A stretch of 8,632 bases of DNA, from contig JAADDU010000104.1 in NCBI GenBank assembly GCA_013153755.1, forward strand, positions 1 to 8,632. The letters run 5' to 3'. The translations under genes and the position numbers were made by a program. Each line of letters begins with the position of its first letter. The stretch's first letter is position 1. The notes under the pieces were generated by a model. It was not told the DNA's origin, did not search any database, and saw only the letters and a list, made by a program, of their open reading frames with translations. This document shows, in pieces, positions 986-8,632 of the stretch. This DNA is from Campylobacterota bacterium. Its GTDB lineage: Bacteria; Campylobacterota; Campylobacteria; Campylobacterales; Sulfurimonadaceae.

Positions 986-999
986 TTGATTTAAGTCAA
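986..999 (+). promoter_or_regulatory. FNR/NnrR-type box for nirS
   Basis: TTGATTTAAGTCAA matches TTGAT-N4-ATCAA with one change in the right arm (G for A). Its centre at 992.5 lies 41.5 bases upstream of the start site (1034) implied by TAGAAT at 1022-1027, which is the class II activator position. Control of nirS by FNR-family regulators responding to low oxygen and NO or nitrite is well established in other denitrifiers; binding here is inferred. Confidence 0.72.
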
Positions 1000-1168: not shown

Positions 1169-1213
1169 TATAGTTTGTACAAGCTATAGTTTGGTAAATT
1201 TTAAATTTTACCA
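1169..1213 (+). promoter_or_regulatory. Two tandem hairpins in the nirS 5' leader
   Basis: Hairpin one (1169-1188) pairs TATAGTTT with AAGCTATA (one G-U) around a GTAC loop. Hairpin two (1192-1213) has a 7-base stem, TGGTAAA with TTTACCA, and is followed by seven T residues (1218-1224) just before the Shine-Dalgarno. The second element resembles a weak intrinsic terminator or attenuator, but its stem is AT-rich. It may instead protect the messenger 5' end. A 9-base direct repeat, TATAGTTTG (1169-1177 and 1185-1193), overlaps both hairpins. Confidence 0.35.
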
Positions 1214-1224
1214 TGTCTTTTTTT

Positions 1225-1230
1225 AGGAGG
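1225..1230 (+). promoter_or_regulatory. Strong ribosome-binding site deciding the nirS start
   Basis: AGGAGG, a full Shine-Dalgarno core, lies nine bases before the ATG at 1240. An in-frame ATG at 1213 lies upstream of this site, has no ribosome-binding site of its own, and would put an unlikely MSFFRRKNK extension before a normal signal peptide. The start is therefore 1240. Confidence 0.9.
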
Positions 1231-1239
1231 AAGAATAAA

Positions 1240-2877
1240 ATGAGATTAAATAAATTAGTTATGTCAGTTGCTGCATTAGCAGTTGTTAGTTCTGGACTTT
1301 TTGCTGGAACATCAAACATGAATGTAGAAAAAATGTTTGAAAAAGAGTGTCAAGGTTGTCACGGTCCTAACCATGAAGGTGGTGTTGGTTCAGATCTTCG
1401 TCCAAATGTAATAGCTAAGAAAAACTCTAACTTTTTAGCAGAAACAGTTTTAAATGGTCGTCCAGGTACGGCAATGCCACAATTTGCTGATAAAATGAAT
1501 AAAGCAGATGCACAAAAAATGGTTGATTATCTTCAACATTTTAAAGGCAAAAAAATGGCTGTTCTTTCAATGGAAAATGTGAAAGCTGGCTGGAAAAAAC
1601 TTAATAACAGAGCAGCACTTTTAAAGAAATATCCAAGTGCAGTGGATGTTAAAAATGTAACTGATATCTGTTTCGTAACAGAGCGTGATGCTGAACGTGT
1701 TGCTTTTGTTGATGGTACAACAGGTAAAGTTTTATCTAAGCACCCAGCTGGTTTTGCTGTTCATGTTACAGTAACAAACAAGCGTCAACCTCGTTATGCT
1801 TACTCTATCTCTCGTTCAGGTTTAGTAACTATGTTTGACCTTGCATCTAAAGGTCAACAAAAAATTGCTCAAGTTCAAGTTGGTTCAGATTCTCGTGGTT
1901 TAGCAGTATCTCCAGATGGTAAATACCTAATGGCAGGAAACTATGTACCAGGTGGAGCAATCCTAATGGACGCAATGACTCTTGAGCCATTAAAAGTTTA
2001 CCCAACTTCATCTGTAATTGATATGGATGGTAACATTGCTTCTTCTCGTGTTGCTGGTATCTATGACACTCCATATGGTCCATACATTGCATTTGCTCTT
2101 AAAGATGCAGGTCATGTATATATCGTAGATTACTCTAAACCAGGTTTCCCAATCGTTGGTGATATTCCAAACATCGGTAAAATCTTACACGATGGTTTTG
2201 AAAATGAAGGTAAAGAGATTGGTCGTTACTTAATGCAAGCATCTCAAGGTTCAGATGTTATGGGTGTTGTTGACTTTAAAACTAAAACATTAGTTGCTAA
2301 AGTTTATACAGGTCCAGGTTCTAAGCCACACCCAGGTCAAGGTTCTTCTTGGTATAATGAGCAATATGGTCAAGTTCATGCTACAAACAGTATGAATGTT
2401 GGTGATGTTGTAATTTGGGATAACAACTGGGATGTTGTTCGTCATGTTAGAACTGCTGGTGGTGGTTTATTTGTTGGTACAAGTGAGCATACACCATTTA
2501 TCTGGTCAGATTGTGTTCTTGGTGGAAAAGCTAACTGGAATAAAATCTACTTAATCAACAAACAAACTCTTGAAACTGACAGAATTTTAACTGTTGGTAC
2601 AAAAAGAGGTACAATTACAGACCCTGTAACTCATAAAACTCTTTATAGCTGGAAAGTTCCAACTGTTAAAGGTAAAAATGGTAAAGCTATAGTTCCTCGT
2701 ATCTTACATGCTGAGCCTGCAAATCATGGTCACTGGACAATGGTTTCTGAGTGGAATGCTGGTCGTATCGGTATCTATGAAGCTAAAACTGGTAAATTTG
2801 TTAAATACATCAAAGGTTTAACAACTCCAACTTTTACTTACTCTATCGAGCATAGACAAACTATACCTGGTGCATAA
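1240..2877 (+). CDS. nirS: Cytochrome cd1 nitrite reductase NirS
   Basis: This periplasmic respiratory enzyme reduces nitrite to nitric oxide using haem c and haem d1. The 545-residue precursor (family usually about 560-600) starts with a Sec signal peptide, MRLNKLVMSVAALAVVSSG, probably cleaved near residues 22-24. Residues about 27-105 form a cytochrome c domain with CQGCH (37-41) and a probable axial Met79 (TAMPQF). The remainder is the eight-bladed d1 propeller. Its expected histidines are all visible: proximal ligand His175 (FAVHVT), and active-site His317 (KILHDGF) and His364 (KPHPGQG), matching His182, His327 and His369 of the Pseudomonas enzyme as I recall them. Having both distal histidines favours NirS over the paralogue NirN. 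A further His490 (RILHAEP) looks NirN/NirF-like. Arg is mostly CGT and Ile often ATC, unlike the AGA/ATA-rich neighbours, consistent with high expression. It is likely controlled by the FNR box at 986-999. Confidence 0.9.
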   Translation: MRLNKLVMSVAALAVVSSGLFAGTSNMNVEKMFEKECQGCHGPNHEGGVGSDLRPNVIAKKNSNFLAETVLNGRPGTAMPQFADKMNKADAQKMVDYLQHFKGKKMAVLSMENVKAGWKKLNNRAALLKKYPSAVDVKNVTDICFVTERDAERVAFVDGTTGKVLSKHPAGFAVHVTVTNKRQPRYAYSISRSGLVTMFDLASKGQQKIAQVQVGSDSRGLAVSPDGKYLMAGNYVPGGAILMDAMTLEPLKVYPTSSVIDMDGNIASSRVAGIYDTPYGPYIAFALKDAGHVYIVDYSKPGFPIVGDIPNIGKILHDGFENEGKEIGRYLMQASQGSDVMGVVDFKTKTLVAKVYTGPGSKPHPGQGSSWYNEQYGQVHATNSMNVGDVVIWDNNWDVVRHVRTAGGGLFVGTSEHTPFIWSDCVLGGKANWNKIYLINKQTLETDRILTVGTKRGTITDPVTHKTLYSWKVPTVKGKNGKAIVPRILHAEPANHGHWTMVSEWNAGRIGIYEAKTGKFVKYIKGLTTPTFTYSIEHRQTIPGA

Positions 2878-2937: not shown

Positions 2938-4050
2938 ATGAAATCAATTTTTTTAATCCTTAGTATTTTAACCTCACTTTTGTCTGCAAAATATTTATCA
3001 AATGAGTCTTGTAAAGAATGTCATGAAGATATTTACTATGAATATCAAACTTCTTACCATTCTAAGACATATTTTAACGATGAGTTGCATAGAAAAGTGG
3101 CTGATAAAGTTAATAAAAACAAGTATGATTGTGCTGTATGTCATATGCCAGGTGCAGATAATCTAAAAGAACTTGTAAGTGGTGAAGCTCATCCTAGTGA
3201 ACTTTATGAAGAACAAACAGATGCTATAAGTTGTTTTTACTGTCATCAGATAGGATATGTCAGAAAAGCTCATGAGCGAAATATAAACTATCTTTCTAAA
3301 AAACCAGCTGGTTATAAACCATCTATGTTTGGTTCACTCGAAGATGCAGATGATAGTGATAAGCATGAGATGCTAAATAACCCTATATATAAAAAGAATG
3401 TTTGCCTTGGTTGTCATTCACATAAAAGAAATACGCATGATGTCATGATTTTTGACGCGATGAAAGATAATCAAGATGCGACCGAATGTATAAAATGTCA
3501 TATGCCTTATGTAGCAGGTGCAGTTGAAAAAACAAATAAAAAGGGACGAGAAGAGCATAGAAGTCATGATTTTGCTGGAATTCATGATAGTGAGATGATA
3601 AAAAATAGTGTTGATATATCACTTATGACACAAGCAAATACTATAGAAGTAACTATTACAAATAAGATGCCTCATCCTCTTATCATTCAAGCATCAAGGT
3701 TAAAGTATCTTGAATTGACTTTAACAAGAAACGGCAAGGTAATTTATAAAAACTTTAAGAAGTCACCTATGGAAGATAAACAAGGTGCTTTCGTTACAGA
3801 ATTTGTAGATGAGAATGATAAATTTGTATCTATTCCTGCATTTGCATATAAAAGAGGTTTTGTAAATAATCTAGCACCAAAAGAGACAAAAGTTCTAAAA
3901 TATAAAGTTTCATCTATACAAAAAGGGGATATTGTAAAAGCATCTTTTTATGTAATACTAGCAAAACCTAGCTGTTCTGATGAGTTAAATCTAAAAGATA
4001 AATCTTTAACTAAACCTACTCTTATGAAGAGTGTTATTTATAAAAAATAG
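2938..4050 (+). CDS. Periplasmic pentahaem c-type cytochrome
   Basis: A 370-residue protein with a Sec signal peptide (MKSIFLILSILTSLLSA, cleavage near Ala17) and five CXXCH haem-binding motifs: CKECH (25-29), CAVCH (65-69), CFYCH (99-103), CLGCH (156-160) and CIKCH (184-188). The haem domain resembles the cytochrome c554-type multihaem family: an SCKECHEDIYYEY start, a helix with extra histidines (His41, His51), and HRSHDFAGIHD (207-217), which could supply distal ligands. Residues about 220-345 have no haem motif and look like an all-beta domain (VDISLM, EVTITNKMPHPLII). No CXXCK motif is present, so it is not an NrfA-type nitrite reductase. The ribosome-binding site is weak (AAGAG). It sits 23 bases after the nirS terminator, with no clear promoter of its own, so read-through is likely. 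Being placed inside a nir cluster suggests electron delivery to NirS or a nitrogen-oxide redox role; that is inference. Confidence 0.85.
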   Translation: MKSIFLILSILTSLLSAKYLSNESCKECHEDIYYEYQTSYHSKTYFNDELHRKVADKVNKNKYDCAVCHMPGADNLKELVSGEAHPSELYEEQTDAISCFYCHQIGYVRKAHERNINYLSKKPAGYKPSMFGSLEDADDSDKHEMLNNPIYKKNVCLGCHSHKRNTHDVMIFDAMKDNQDATECIKCHMPYVAGAVEKTNKKGREEHRSHDFAGIHDSEMIKNSVDISLMTQANTIEVTITNKMPHPLIIQASRLKYLELTLTRNGKVIYKNFKKSPMEDKQGAFVTEFVDENDKFVSIPAFAYKRGFVNNLAPKETKVLKYKVSSIQKGDIVKASFYVILAKPSCSDELNLKDKSLTKPTLMKSVIYKK

Positions 4051-4153: not shown

Positions 4154-4462
4154 ATGAAAAGTTTATATTTAATAATCATATTTTTGTTTGTTTCATTGTC
4201 TGCTCAAACATTAGATGGAAAAAAAGTTTTTGAAACTTACTGCTGGGGATGTCATCATCAAACTGCTGTTGCTTTTGGACCACCATTTTCAGAGATAGCA
4301 TCAAAAAGAACTTACGAAGAGATTCAGGCATACATAATAAGCCCTAAATCTATGTATAAACAGTTTGGATATAAAAGAAGTGTTATGACTCAGTTTCATC
4401 TTAGTGATGATGAGAGAGAAGCCATAGCAAAATATATACTCTCATATAAAGGTAAAAAATAA
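4154..4462 (+). CDS. nirC: Small monohaem cytochrome c, NirC-like
   Basis: A 102-residue protein with a Sec signal peptide (about 1-17, ending SLSA) and one haem c site, CWGCH (30-34). A class I cytochrome c pattern follows: GPPF (42-45), a probable axial Met78 in SVMTQF, and a C-terminal helix LSDDEREAIAKYILSY. Size and position, directly before nirJ, match NirC of other nir clusters, a periplasmic cytochrome proposed to donate electrons to NirS or to serve haem d1 maturation. Such small cytochromes are hard to assign by sequence, and it could equally be a general c55x donor. AAGG lies six bases before the start. Its stop overlaps the nirJ start by one base (TAATG), indicating translational coupling. 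Confidence 0.7.
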   Translation: MKSLYLIIIFLFVSLSAQTLDGKKVFETYCWGCHHQTAVAFGPPFSEIASKRTYEEIQAYIISPKSMYKQFGYKRSVMTQFHLSDDEREAIAKYILSYKGKK

Positions 4463-5580
4463 TGTTTAGACTGTCAAATCTTATATCTTCAGTAGTTGAA
4501 GAAAAAAAAGAGAGAGTTTTAGATGGTAGCATAGCTATTTGGAATTTCACAAATCGTTGTAATTTATCATGTCTTCATTGTTATTCAAAATCAACTTTAG
4601 ATGAAGTTGATACTTTAACAACACCACAGATAAAAAAAACAATCTTACAGATGAAGGAAAATGGTGTTAAGTTTATTATCTTTTCAGGTGGAGAGCCACT
4701 TACAAGAAAGGATCTGTTTGAAATAGCTGATTTTTGTAAAGATAATGGAATTATTACTTACCTTTCTAGTAATGGTTTGTACTTCACAAAGAGTAATGTT
4801 AAGCGTATAGTAGATACTTTTAACTATGTTGGTGTTAGCATAGATGGAGATGAACCTACCCATGATTACTTTCGTGGGCTTAAAGGTGCATTTAAAGAGA
4901 CTCTAAAAGCTGTTCAGTTAGCAAATTCAACTGGTGCAAAAGTTGGTATAAGATTTACTATGACAAAGGATACTATAGGTTCTTTAGAGTATATCTTTGA
5001 TTTGGCAGAAAAAGAAAATATACCTAAAATATATGTATCTCATCTAGTTTATTCTGGCCGAGGACTTGATAATTTAAAGATGGATTTAACAAAAGAACAA
5101 AGAAGAAAAGCTGTTGAATTTATCTTAAAAAAAGCTTTTGAGTATTATGAGAGTGGTAGAGATATAGAGATAGTAACTGGAAACATGGAGATGGATGCTG
5201 TACTCTTTTTAGAAGAGTTTACAAAACGTTATCCTAAATATGCAGACACTATGAGAGAAAGACTTGTAAAATGGGGTGGGAATTCTGCTGGACGCAAACT
5301 TTTAAATATAAACAGTGAAGGTGATGTAAGACCTGACCCATTTTTCCCACTAATAGTTGGAAATATTATAAACCAAGACTTTGGAGATATTTGGCAAAGT
5401 GGAGAGCTTTTAGATAAGCTAAGAGTACATCCAAGAGAGATAAAAGGTATATGTGGTGAATGTAAGCAAATAGATATATGTAATGGTGGTTCAAGAGCTA
5501 GAGCCTATGCTATTAGTGGAGATTTATGGGATGAAGACCCATCATGCTATTTGAGTAAAGAAGAGAGAGGAAATATATAA
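4462..5580 (+). CDS. nirJ: Radical SAM haem d1 biosynthesis protein NirJ
   Basis: A cytoplasmic enzyme that, in the known pathway, removes two propionate side chains from 12,18-didecarboxysiroheme on the way to haem d1. The 372 residues are close to the family size. The radical SAM cluster motif CNLSCLHC lies at 33-40 (Cys33, Cys37, Cys40), and the SAM-contacting SGGEPL follows at 75-80. The C-terminal SPASM-type region has Cys331, Cys334, Cys340 and Cys362 in ICGECKQIDICNGG and DEDPSCYL, expected to hold a second iron-sulphur cluster. The segment GDVRPDPFFPLIVGNI (288-302 region) resembles the corresponding NirJ segment. AhbC or other SPASM proteins are alternatives, but flanking by nirC and nirF favours NirJ. 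The start overlaps the nirC stop by one base, with AAAGG nine bases upstream. Confidence 0.9.
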   Translation: MFRLSNLISSVVEEKKERVLDGSIAIWNFTNRCNLSCLHCYSKSTLDEVDTLTTPQIKKTILQMKENGVKFIIFSGGEPLTRKDLFEIADFCKDNGIITYLSSNGLYFTKSNVKRIVDTFNYVGVSIDGDEPTHDYFRGLKGAFKETLKAVQLANSTGAKVGIRFTMTKDTIGSLEYIFDLAEKENIPKIYVSHLVYSGRGLDNLKMDLTKEQRRKAVEFILKKAFEYYESGRDIEIVTGNMEMDAVLFLEEFTKRYPKYADTMRERLVKWGGNSAGRKLLNINSEGDVRPDPFFPLIVGNIINQDFGDIWQSGELLDKLRVHPREIKGICGECKQIDICNGGSRARAYAISGDLWDEDPSCYLSKEERGNI

Positions 5581-5582
5581 TT

Positions 5583-6680
5583 ATGATGAAAAAAATACTT
5601 TTTGGTGTTATAGCTACAGCAACACTAATGACAAGCATAAATGCAACAGAAAAAATATTTGTTGTTGAGAGAGAGAGCAGTTCTTTAGCGATTATTGAAA
5701 ATGGTTTACCAAGAAGTCATATGGAAAATATGCACAATATGAATCATGGTGTTGTAAAATTTGATGGTAAAGATGGTTATGTAATTAGTAGGGATGGTTT
5801 TGTTGTTAAGTTTGACCCTATAAAAGAGAAGATACTAAAAGAGTATAAAACAAGTGATAGTGCTATTGGTTTTGTTATAGGTAAAAATTACGTTGCTGTT
5901 GCAAATTATGATGATAAAAGTGTAGATATATTAGATAGAGATTTAAATCCTATTAAGAAGATAGTAACTGGAAGTAAAAATGTAGGTATAAAAATTTATA
6001 AAAATTATCTTATATTTTCACAAATGGATAACGATAAAATCACTGTTTTAAAAGATAAAAATAAAGGTAAAGGTCTTCCAGATTTTGAGATATATAAAGA
6101 GTTTAAAGATGTTGGAGTTATGCCTTTTGATGCGATGATAAAAGATAATAATTTTATAACAGGTTTCTTTCAAAGTCCATGGTTTGGTGTGGTTGACCTA
6201 GATAAAATGGAGTATAAAAAGATAGATATACTTTTAGGAGACAGAAAACCAGTGCTTAAAGTTCCACATTTTGGTTTTTGGTCCATAAGTGATGGTAATG
6301 TTTTTATACCAGCTGTTGGAGATAATAAAGTTTTAGTTTATACACCTGATTTTAAATTTGTTAAAAATATAGAGACGGAAGGATTACCAGTATTTACTTC
6401 TTTAAGTCCTGATAAAAAATATTTAGCTGTAACATTTAGTGGTAAAAAATTTCCAGTTATTCAAATCATAGATACTAAAACTTTAAAGATTATCAAGAGA
6501 TTTGAGTTTGATGGAAAAGTACTACATGTTAGATGGAGAAAAGAGAAACCTGAACTTTATGTATCTGTAAATGATACAAATAAAACTGCTGTATTAGATA
6601 CAAAAGATTGGTGGTTAAAAAGAGAGATTTTTCAAATCAAAAAACCATCAGGTATATTTATTTATGAGGATAAAAAATAA
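5583..6680 (+). CDS. nirF: Haem d1 biosynthesis protein NirF
   Basis: A 365-residue periplasmic protein resembling the d1 propeller of NirS without its cytochrome c domain. In the known pathway it acts late, giving dihydro-haem d1. The N-terminus MMKKILFGVIATATLMTSINA is a Sec signal with an A-x-A-like end (INA). No lipobox Cys is present, unlike some NirF proteins that are membrane-anchored. Family-like features include MNHGVVKF with His55, probably the essential histidine known as His41 in the Paracoccus protein, then QSPWFGVVDL (197-206), KVPHFGFW (226-233, His229) and KVLHVRW (312-318, His315). Strand repeats fit an eight-bladed propeller. The start could be Met1 or Met2; an AGAGG lies twelve bases before the first. 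It lies two bases after nirJ and overlaps nirE by one base. Confidence 0.88.
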   Translation: MMKKILFGVIATATLMTSINATEKIFVVERESSSLAIIENGLPRSHMENMHNMNHGVVKFDGKDGYVISRDGFVVKFDPIKEKILKEYKTSDSAIGFVIGKNYVAVANYDDKSVDILDRDLNPIKKIVTGSKNVGIKIYKNYLIFSQMDNDKITVLKDKNKGKGLPDFEIYKEFKDVGVMPFDAMIKDNNFITGFFQSPWFGVVDLDKMEYKKIDILLGDRKPVLKVPHFGFWSISDGNVFIPAVGDNKVLVYTPDFKFVKNIETEGLPVFTSLSPDKKYLAVTFSGKKFPVIQIIDTKTLKIIKRFEFDGKVLHVRWRKEKPELYVSVNDTNKTAVLDTKDWWLKREIFQIKKPSGIFIYEDKK

Positions 6681-7420
6681 TGGGTAAAGTTTATTTAACA
6701 GGTGCTGGTCCTGGAGATATTGAGCTACTGACTTTAAAAGCACTTAGAGTTATAAGAGAAGCGGATGTTGTTATATATGACCGCTTAGCAAACCCAGATA
6801 TACTTAAAGAAGCAAAAGATGGTTGTGAGTTTGTTTATGTTGGTAAAGAGGATGGAAGACATATAATGCCTCAAGATGAGATAAACGAAGTTATCTATCA
6901 AAATGCACTTAAACATGATGTTGTTGTTCGCTTAAAAGGTGGGGATCCATTTGTTTTTGGTAGAGGAGGGGAGGAAGCTATATATCTTTTAGATAGAGAT
7001 GTAAAGTTTGATATTATCCCTGGAATTACTTCTGCTATTTCTGCTCCTGCTTATGCTGGAATCCCAGTAACACACCGTGGTGTAGCAGTTAGTTTTAGAG
7101 TTGTAACAGGACATGAATCACCAAATAAAAAAGTTTCTCAAATCCCTTGGGAGAACTTTAAAACAGACGATACTATAGTATTTTTGATGGGACTTCATAA
7201 TTTACCTCAAATAAGTAAAAAACTTATGGAGATAGGAAAATCAAAGGATTACCCAGTTGCAGTTATATCAAGAGGTACAACAAAAGAGCAACAAGTTATA
7301 GTTGGAACACTTGAGGATATAGTTGAAAAATCTAAAGATATTCCTACTCCAGCACTTATTGTAGTTGGTCGAGTAGTTGAACTTAGAGAACAACTAAAAT
7401 GGTTTGGGGCAGATGCCTAA
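6680..7420 (+). CDS. nirE: Uroporphyrinogen-III C-methyltransferase NirE
   Basis: A cytoplasmic SAM-dependent methyltransferase that methylates uroporphyrinogen III at C2 and C7 to give precorrin-2, the first committed step to sirohaem and haem d1. The 246 residues cover the whole SUMT/CobA domain with no CysG-type dehydrogenase extension. Diagnostic motifs are GAGPGD (8-13), YDRL (33-36), RLKGGDPFVFGRGGEE (84-99) and PGITSAISAPAYAGIPVTHRG region (114-134), followed by GH (144-145). On sequence alone cobA or the methylase for sirohaem cannot be excluded; the position behind nirF supports NirE. GAGGA lies nine bases upstream, and the start overlaps the nirF stop as TAATG, the same AAAAAATAATG arrangement seen at the nirC/nirJ junction. 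Its last eight bases overlap the start of the sensor kinase. Confidence 0.9.
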   Translation: MGKVYLTGAGPGDIELLTLKALRVIREADVVIYDRLANPDILKEAKDGCEFVYVGKEDGRHIMPQDEINEVIYQNALKHDVVVRLKGGDPFVFGRGGEEAIYLLDRDVKFDIIPGITSAISAPAYAGIPVTHRGVAVSFRVVTGHESPNKKVSQIPWENFKTDDTIVFLMGLHNLPQISKKLMEIGKSKDYPVAVISRGTTKEQQVIVGTLEDIVEKSKDIPTPALIVVGRVVELREQLKWFGADA

Positions 7421-8632
7421 AATACAGGTTGAGTATAAACAATCCATAGAGATAGCATCAAATATTTTTTGGGTTGGGATGTATCTTGAGAATGATCCTT
7501 TTCAGTGTCATCCTTATTTTATCAAGAATGGTGATGAATCTATACTTATAGATCCAGGTTCTATGCTTGAATTTGATGAGACTGTTAGAAAAGTAAAAAC
7601 TCTTTGTGATTTAAAATCTATAAAATATATAGTATTGCATCATCAAGATCCCGACCTTTGTGCAGCTGTACCAGAGATAGAAAAACTTATAGATAGAGAT
7701 GATTTACAAATAGTAACTCATTCTAGGATGTCAGTTTTAATCAAGCACTACTTAATTAAATCAGAATATTATGAGATAGATAAACAAGATTATAAACTAA
7801 TTACATCAAATGGATATAAACTAGATTTTTTAAGTACGCCGTATTGTCATTCACCAGGTGCGTTTGTTAGTTATGAACCATCTACAAAAACACTTTTTTC
7901 TGGAGATATTTTTGGTGGCATTGAAGAGAGTTGGGAGTTTTTTGCTGATGAGACATACTTTGATAAAGCTAAAAAATTCCATCAAGAATATATGCCAAGT
8001 AAAGATATATTTAATTATGCTCTTAGTAAGATAGAATCACTAGATATAAATATTATAGCTCCACAACATGGTTCCATCATAAAAAAAGAGTATATAAAAA
8101 ACCTTATAAATGATATGAAAAATCTTGATTGTGGTCTTTATATAGAGGATAAATATAACCTTGAACTTTTAGATACTATAAACGAACTAAAAGTAAAAGA
8201 AAAAACGATTCAAGAGAGAGATAAGCAACTTTTTGAACAATCAAAAAGAGCTGAAATAGGGGAGATGATAGGTAATATTGCTCATCAATGGCGTCAGCCA
8301 CTAGCTATAGTGAGTACAGTTCTAGCTATTTTAAAAGAGAAAAATGAGGCTGAAGTTTTAACTAAAGAAGATATAGCTAAAAAAGTGGATAGTATAGAAA
8401 AAAGAGTAAGTTATATGTCTGATACTATTGAAGATTTTATGAATTATTATAAGCCCAATAAAAATAAAACAGCATTTAGTATATATAAAGCGATAAAAAA
8501 AGCTCTTGAAATTTCAAATTATACTAAAGAGAGTCAAAAGATAGATATAAAAGTAGAAGTAGTAGAAGATCTAAAGATATTTGGTCTTTTAAATGAGTTT
8601 GTACAAGTTATAGTTTCTATACTCTCAAATAT
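7413..8632 (+). CDS. Diiron (ODP-type MBL-fold) sensor histidine kinase, 3'-truncated by window edge
   Basis: The frame runs open from ATG 7413 to the window end (406 codons plus two bases) without a stop. Residues about 10-240 form a metallo-beta-lactamase fold of the flavodiiron/ODP kind, with metal ligands His77, Asp79, Asp81 (HHQDPD), His146 (CHSPG), Asp165 (SGDIFGG) and His219 (PQHG). The residue after Asp81 is Leu, where flavodiiron enzymes have a further His ligand, and there is no flavodoxin domain. Both points suit a sensor rather than an NO/O2 reductase. Residues about 245-280 look like a coiled-coil linker. HisKA follows with phospho-acceptor His291 (NIAHQWRQPL), and the ATPase domain is cut near its N-box (SILSN, ending Asn406). 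There is no signal peptide or membrane segment, so it is cytoplasmic. It overlaps nirE by eight bases (ATGCCTAA), with only GGGG three bases upstream, so coupled translation is likely. Sensing O2, NO or iron state is inferred. Confidence 0.85.
   Translation, partial: MPKIQVEYKQSIEIASNIFWVGMYLENDPFQCHPYFIKNGDESILIDPGSMLEFDETVRKVKTLCDLKSIKYIVLHHQDPDLCAAVPEIEKLIDRDDLQIVTHSRMSVLIKHYLIKSEYYEIDKQDYKLITSNGYKLDFLSTPYCHSPGAFVSYEPSTKTLFSGDIFGGIEESWEFFADETYFDKAKKFHQEYMPSKDIFNYALSKIESLDINIIAPQHGSIIKKEYIKNLINDMKNLDCGLYIEDKYNLELLDTINELKVKEKTIQERDKQLFEQSKRAEIGEMIGNIAHQWRQPLAIVSTVLAILKEKNEAEVLTKEDIAKKVDSIEKRVSYMSDTIEDFMNYYKPNKNKTAFSIYKAIKKALEISNYTKESQKIDIKVEVVEDLKIFGLLNEFVQVIVSILSN

Follow-up and report, generated by a model that had tools for sequence, protein, structure and literature searches.

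According to the accessible parts of two reports, the oxygen-binding diiron protein (ODP) that serves chemotaxis as an oxygen sensor is a stand-alone protein coupled to a chemoreceptor (PMC7666581, PMC6978683). The available text on QseEF-GlmY of Proteus mirabilis describes a regulator that controls the promoter of a small RNA gene beside its two-component system (PMC8745638), and the available text on Campylobacter jejuni BumSR describes a PAS input that senses branched short-chain fatty acids, the conserved autophosphorylation residues being absent (PMC11796366). According to a 2019 review, Campylobacterota have no known orthologues of ArcA, FNR or NarP, and an oxygen-responsive regulator was still to be identified in C. 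jejuni (PMC6682613). Our search of open-licence papers returned no description of an ODP-kinase, of its response regulator (RR) box or of the RNA reported here.

The present locus lies in an 8,632-nt stretch of DNA from a marine Sulfurimonas-type bacterium, analysed as a whole and called the window, which carries an operon in the order nirS, multihaem cytochrome, cytochrome c, nirJ, nirF, nirE and kinase ORF. On the forward strand are nirS (cytochrome cd1; 1213..2877, with ATG 1240 the likelier start; PF02239 at 1.4e-62 plus cytochrome c), a cytochrome c gene (4154..4462; PF00034), a gene for a nirJ-like radical SAM protein (4462..5580; TIGR04051, 380 bits, below the cut-off of 515), one for a nirF-like cytochrome d1-domain protein (5583..6680; PF02239) and one for a nirE-type uroporphyrinogen-III methyltransferase (6680..7420; NF004790/TIGR01469, above cut-off). 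The multihaem cytochrome c554-like gene between nirS and the cytochrome c gene (2938-4050; Pfam) occurs in the same arrangement in L059, L086, L133 and L142 and is missing from most of the relatives read. NorC/NorB-like genes (cytochrome c, COX1-family), which precede nirS in most relatives, are absent from positions 701-1212, a region that nonetheless keeps a nor-type promoter with an FNR-type palindrome.

The ODP-histidine kinase gene (7413..8632, forward strand; ORF, Pfam and alignment) begins with an ATG at 7413, inside the end of nirE as the first-pass annotation had it; the overlap is 8 nt (7413..7420, forward strand, the nirE stop occupying 7418-7420). Counting the window, 39 of 43 loci have an in-frame ATG in the final 25 nt of nirE, and 34 of the 43 share the offset of the first such ATG. 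The reading frame is stop-free through 8632 and yields 406 aa; the 3' end of the gene, the ATPase domain and the regulator gene lie outside the window.

Residues 30-220 (7500..8072, forward strand) form an ODP domain (PF19583, E 1.4e-62; 211.4 bits against a curated cut-off of 27.2). The best PDB sequence matches are the oxygen-binding diiron proteins 6qrq (E 1.6e-27) and 6qnm (E 1.1e-19), which we take to be the ODP of Treponema denticola/Thermotoga maritima; flavodiiron enzymes rank behind both, and the flavodiiron NCBIfam profile gives 46 bits, far under its cut-off of 635. The ligand motif H77-x-D79-x-D81 (7641..7655) is followed by H146 (7848..7850), D165 (7905..7907) and H219 (8067..8069), all on the forward strand. 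An alignment of 44 ODP-containing proteins shows no variation at D81, H146, D165 and H219, and at least 90% conservation of H77 and D79. In flavodiiron sites the equivalent of D165 is the bridging ligand, and a second His occupies the position equivalent to 82. The window kinase has Leu there, its HxDxD not matching the flavodiiron HxExDH motif, and Pfam found no flavodoxin domain in its 406 aa or in the full-length relative L002. Members of the ODP family bind two irons and, reversibly, O2; on these sequence features the domain is predicted to hold a six-ligand diiron site that binds O2.

The linker that follows (8073..8258, forward strand; domain annotation and alignment) is direct in the clade of the window and holds a PAS domain in an ODP-PAS-HK clade. 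It leads to a HisKA dimerisation/phospho-acceptor domain (residues 283-347; 8259..8453, forward strand; PF00512, E 4.9e-08), whose H-box, AHQWRQPL, contains the phospho-acceptor His291 (8283-8285). HisKA scores 33.4 bits in the window against a cut-off of 26.9 and 26.7, slightly under it, in full-length L002; HATPase_c is present in L002, and the full-length kinases of relatives are about 500 aa long with kinase motifs intact. The first-pass annotation had named the same six ligands with exact numbering, the missing flavodoxin domain and extra His after the third ligand, and the junction of ODP to HisKA, and on each point alignment and Pfam agree with it. An ODP-PAS-GGDEF-EAL fusion and a stand-alone ODP gene directly before a PAS-GGDEF-EAL gene were also seen (L099:7912-10770; L120:7836-10510), so ODP looks like a general input module in the Campylobacterota group examined.

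Relatives of the kinase with 67-80% identity are encoded on 12 genome contigs (ten Sulfurimonas sp., one Helicobacteraceae and one Campylobacterota), and 51 kinase loci were fetched from a family set of 228 genomes. The first-pass annotation had suggested looking for a response regulator next door, here beyond the end of the window, and for the same domain pairing beside nir genes elsewhere in Campylobacterota; nirE is directly upstream of the kinase gene in 42 of the 51 loci, and an RR gene is directly downstream in 41, the contig ending in one (two further nirE-linked loci, L002 and L010, stand outside this count). The RR of relatives consists of a receiver and Trans_reg_C (OmpR-type), and its gene overlaps or abuts that of the kinase. 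In five loci (L047, L053, L054, L060 and L088, the last kinase having been missed by the ORF caller and placed by a separate genome search) the kinase stands before nrdD in place of nir. In the PAS clade (L104-L108) the ODP-PAS-HK gene is followed by the RR gene and, in four of five loci, by nrdD, which in L105 (G005) is on a different contig; nrdG is not in every locus, some loci being cut. The same system thus adjoins nrdD, encoding the anaerobic ribonucleotide reductase, in two other clades, and the expected association with anaerobic genes extends from nir in one clade to nrdD in others. Eight genomes of another family have the kinase/RR pair beside a ppx-type gene (named from reading the sequence), with neither nir nor nrd adjoining. 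In a tree of 66 N-terminal ODP regions each genomic context stays together, and the nir-linked kinases form a single clade (support 95/94) that also contains L074, which has no nir genes.

Comparison of the sequences upstream of nrdD yielded a direct-repeat box, TTGACA-N4-TTGACA-N11-TATAMT; OmpR/PhoB regulators use direct-repeat boxes in place of a -35 element. Counting matches with up to three mismatches, 24 of 59 distinct regions have the box in the 130 nt that follow the RR stop, compared with 7 of 3000 random windows. The lineages with the box just 3' of the RR gene are Sulfurovum, the nrdD-linked ones and part of the basal nir-linked ones. Genome-wide the box is rare: across the 228 genomes, 33 boxes with at most one mismatch were counted against four for the reversed pattern. 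Of the 33, 24 adjoin the 3' end of an RR gene, belong to the small RNA or precede nrdD. By our tally such boxes occur in 15 of 56 genomes with the system and in six of 172 without it; one of the six (G032) has the box at nrdD, although ODP-HK was not found in that genome, and the rest look like chance, some being inside genes. The box is so placed that it could drive transcription of a structured small-RNA candidate, and in several genomes that of nrdD too. An activator would bind at such a position, and one box type serves both nrdD and the RNA; hence we read the RR as an activator.

Two nrdD genes unlinked to the system are nevertheless boxed, in G031 (one mismatch), where an RNA of this kind is on a separate contig, and in G005 (two mismatches). 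A box without mismatch precedes nosZ in one genome of the Sulfurovum-type set that belongs to another family (G485), and another precedes a porin gene in one genome. NIT (nitrate/nitrite-sensing) genes are boxed upstream in three genomes (L246:1130-1981; L250:1010-1861; L251:3090-5084), the domain being confirmed by Pfam in L246 and L251 and L250 being a look-alike of L246. Between RR and nrdD, L104 (10423-10892), L106 and L108 each have two RNA-like units in tandem, both boxed, and one box more. We rejected nrdD as a universal target of the RR, most of the 30 nrdD loci read having a different TGACA repeat; this repeat, with a spacing of about 11 bp (by eye, unscored), precedes nrdD in L171, L173 and L175-L195, with and without an ODP kinase. 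Close to the window, L072, L075 (on the same contig as L001) and L084 have the box with two or three mismatches, and L002/G001 has none at the RR; nine readable basal loci also have no RR-adjacent box.

The small-RNA candidate was read from seven stretches downstream of the RR gene in the Sulfurovum-type set (eight loci, L152 being omitted as nearly equal to L148). All have a hairpin at the 5' end and, towards the 3' end, a long helix in which six pairs are compensated. Helix covariation is 0.265 against 0.137 in shuffled alignments, and 93.7% of helix cells pair against at most 43.8% when slid, the helices having been named from the same sequences that were scored, which favours them. Four of five covariation measures exceed most shuffles; the exception is the count of further pair types, 8 as against 9.7 in shuffles. 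In other clades the predicted transcript is shorter, often with a terminator-like hairpin at its end, and Rfam returned no match in eight loci. The sequence ATTCAAAGC is exact in 10 of 27 post-box stretches, second and third boxes leading nrdD included, against 8 of 3000 controls, the ten being related lineages and not independent. The seed of the RNA is AAGATTCAAAGC.

The seed complement, GCTTTGAATCTT, has 19 sites in 12 chosen genomes: five in RNA genes, seven just upstream of a protein that starts MENRPLEYDY and seven elsewhere. That protein is CcoN of the cbb3 oxidase (TIGR00780, 682 bits). Seed and ccoN ribosome-binding region are complementary, with one seed/target pair in Sulfurimonas and another in Sulfurovum; in Sulfurovum-type genomes the RNA loop CCCCCUUGU pairs with the genome's own ccoN SD, ACAAGGGGG, by at least nine pairs in seven of eight. 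The ccoN gene was found in 24 of 28 genomes, 22 of them with its start, and at least nine contiguous pairs can form between the genome's own RNA and ccoN in 17 of these 22 box-positive genomes, one G-U pair being allowed and counted half. Scored against 200 control RBS regions, contiguous pairing reaches the top 1% in 12 of 22 genomes, and duplex energy is in the top 1% of controls in nine of 22; the energies are noisy, and contiguous complementarity was adopted after the first result had been seen. In G043-G045 the exact 12-nt seed complement was not found outside the RNA gene itself.

We propose that the kinase is the sensor of a cytoplasmic two-component system in which O2 would bind the ODP diiron site, the ligand state setting the activity of the joined kinase on its OmpR-type partner. 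Without O2 the kinase would be on, and the phosphorylated RR would bind the direct-repeat box standing in for the -35 element, activating the small-RNA gene just 3' of its own gene, in some lineages nrdD, and rarely nosZ or nitrate/nitrite-sensing genes. The RNA would then pair with the ccoN ribosome-binding region and turn the cbb3 oxidase off. O2-bound ODP reportedly lowers CheA phosphorylation in the 2019 work of Muok. The domains, ligands, gene order, box, structured RNA candidate and seed complementarity entering this proposal are direct observations; from them we infer O2 as the signal, the direction of switching, RR binding and ccoN repression. As a whole we hold this explanation to be somewhat more probable than its negation. 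The outputs best predicted from sequence are the small RNA next to the RR gene and nrdD, with ccoN reached by way of the RNA. We infer that the genome of the window, cut before the RR, has the same outputs as its relatives.

The system may be real and its link to ccoN incidental, the RR-downstream transcript being a leader or terminator and the ccoN element serving another regulator, which we consider unlikely but deserving of weight. Among 14 genomes that lack the system, 13 retain an exact copy of an element beside the ccoN SD, GCTTTGAATC (L305-L334). It is therefore independent of this RNA, and other RNAs or factors must use it in those genomes, which weakens it as proof of the ODP-kinase system. 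The derived nir clade (23 rows) has no RR-adjacent box in any of 22 readable loci, L069 being cut there, and G095 and G218, which are among the nearest readable relatives of the window, belong to the five of 22 genomes with weak pairing (also G011, G037 and G575), the G095 RNA being able to pair with ccoN in two blocks with a gap (by eye). Against an incidental link, two clades have different seeds that each match their own ccoN, exact seed complements are few and seven of the 19 are at ccoN, and the RNA helix has compensated pairs. Among 15 box-less nir-derived genomes the ccoN element has drifted in seven, which fits loss of the RNA without proving it.

The first-pass annotation had the kinase reading O2 or NO and adjusting denitrification from inside the operon, an adjustment that our results do not support. 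In a rival reading of this kind NO, bound at the diiron site, or a nitrite-derived stress would be the signal. In its favour, one clade has the kinase as the last gene after nirS-nirJFE, ODP and flavodiiron NO reductases are related, and one nosZ and three NIT-domain genes are boxed. The nor-nir promoters point elsewhere: with or without the kinase, all 30 distinct promoters (33 rows minus copies) have the FNR-type palindrome TTGAT-N4-ATCAA. It has no more than one mismatch in 29 of them, a level reached by 84 of 2000 random windows, and two mismatches in the last; in 29 of 30 it lies 40-95 nt before the first ORF. In the window it occurs upstream of nirS as TTGATTTAAGTCAA (986..999, forward strand; one mismatch) and in perfect form at 806-819, both by motif scan, the three matches in the window being unremarkable (22 of 200 shuffles). 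The RR box was not found at nor-nir promoters except for one two-mismatch site (L076), and a box inside the operon of the window was rejected, none occurring at up to three mismatches. An FNR-type regulator therefore probably switches the nor-nir operon, and the kinase with it.

The distribution of NirS also weighs against this role in denitrification. NirS is present in 111 of 228 genomes, and by our tally 67 of the 111 lack any of the 56 kinases (46 + 5 + 5; G003, G132 and G184, with fragments or ~50% relatives, counted as without). In the nir-linked kinase clade 39 of 46 genomes have NirS (tally); in five of the other seven the contig breaks off near the kinase, and the remaining two (G090, G101) seem to lack NirS; NirS also occurs in two nrdD-linked and three PAS-type kinase genomes. 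Of 20 nir loci without a nir-linked kinase, 12 could be read past nirE, the following gene being on the opposite strand, and among the remaining eight four are cut by contig ends, one has a same-strand next gene and three have diverged. The ODP-kinase is not needed for nir. Because other lineages have the system beside nrdD, the anaerobic ribonucleotide reductase gene, in place of nir, O2 fits better than NO, a preference given by genomic context only. The eight genomes with the pair beside a ppx-type gene also count against NO, and we regard NO sensing as improbable. A sensor of iron or of redox state, reading Fe(II) occupancy at the site instead of O2 itself, we likewise find doubtful, for although the Treponema ODP is said to have been described as an Fe[II] and oxygen sensor, the outputs named, few as those known are, are oxidase and anaerobic genes and not iron genes.

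The oxygen-switch explanation can be extended to free-living Campylobacterota at large, with anoxic expression of nrdD and of a cbb3-silencing RNA, co-evolution of seed and ccoN in Sulfurimonas and Sulfurovum, and a single capture of the module by nir; we hold this wider account tentatively, as falling just short of an even chance. If the RNA silences the high-affinity oxidase, the ODP-kinase would be a candidate for the oxygen switch that this group has so far been missing, and would explain how bacteria abundant at vents and redoxclines change over between O2 and nitrate. It would also add a kinase-coupled class to the ODP sensors. Testable sites exist in the cultured kinase carriers S. gotlandica GD1, S. 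hongkongensis, Sulfurovum NBC37-1 and S. lithotrophicum.

Compared with known systems, the window kinase shares with the Treponema/Thermotoga ODP the domain family, the six ligands and HxDxD without the flavodiiron extra His. In contrast to the chemotaxis ODP, as presented in the accessible parts of those reports, its ODP and a HisKA kinase form one polypeptide, partnered in relatives by an OmpR-type regulator. It resembles flavodiiron NO/O2 reductases (flavorubredoxin, FprA) in its metallo-beta-lactamase-type domain and ligand pattern, but has neither a flavodoxin domain nor a second His after the third ligand. The QseEF regulator is of a different class from OmpR-type. Within the available description of QseEF-GlmY, both are two-component systems beside a small RNA gene, with promoter control by the regulator predicted for the ODP system, but signal and target differ, and the RNA gene is upstream there and downstream in the ODP system. 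Like BumSR, so far as the available text goes, the ODP-kinase would be a cytoplasmic campylobacterotal sensor with a partner regulator; unlike it, the window kinase has an ODP input and an H-box with its His, and identity with BumS was rejected because the input of BumS is PAS (PMC11796366). ODP sensors and kinase-RNA circuits are already known, and what is new, within the open-licence literature searched, is an ODP-kinase with this predicted output.
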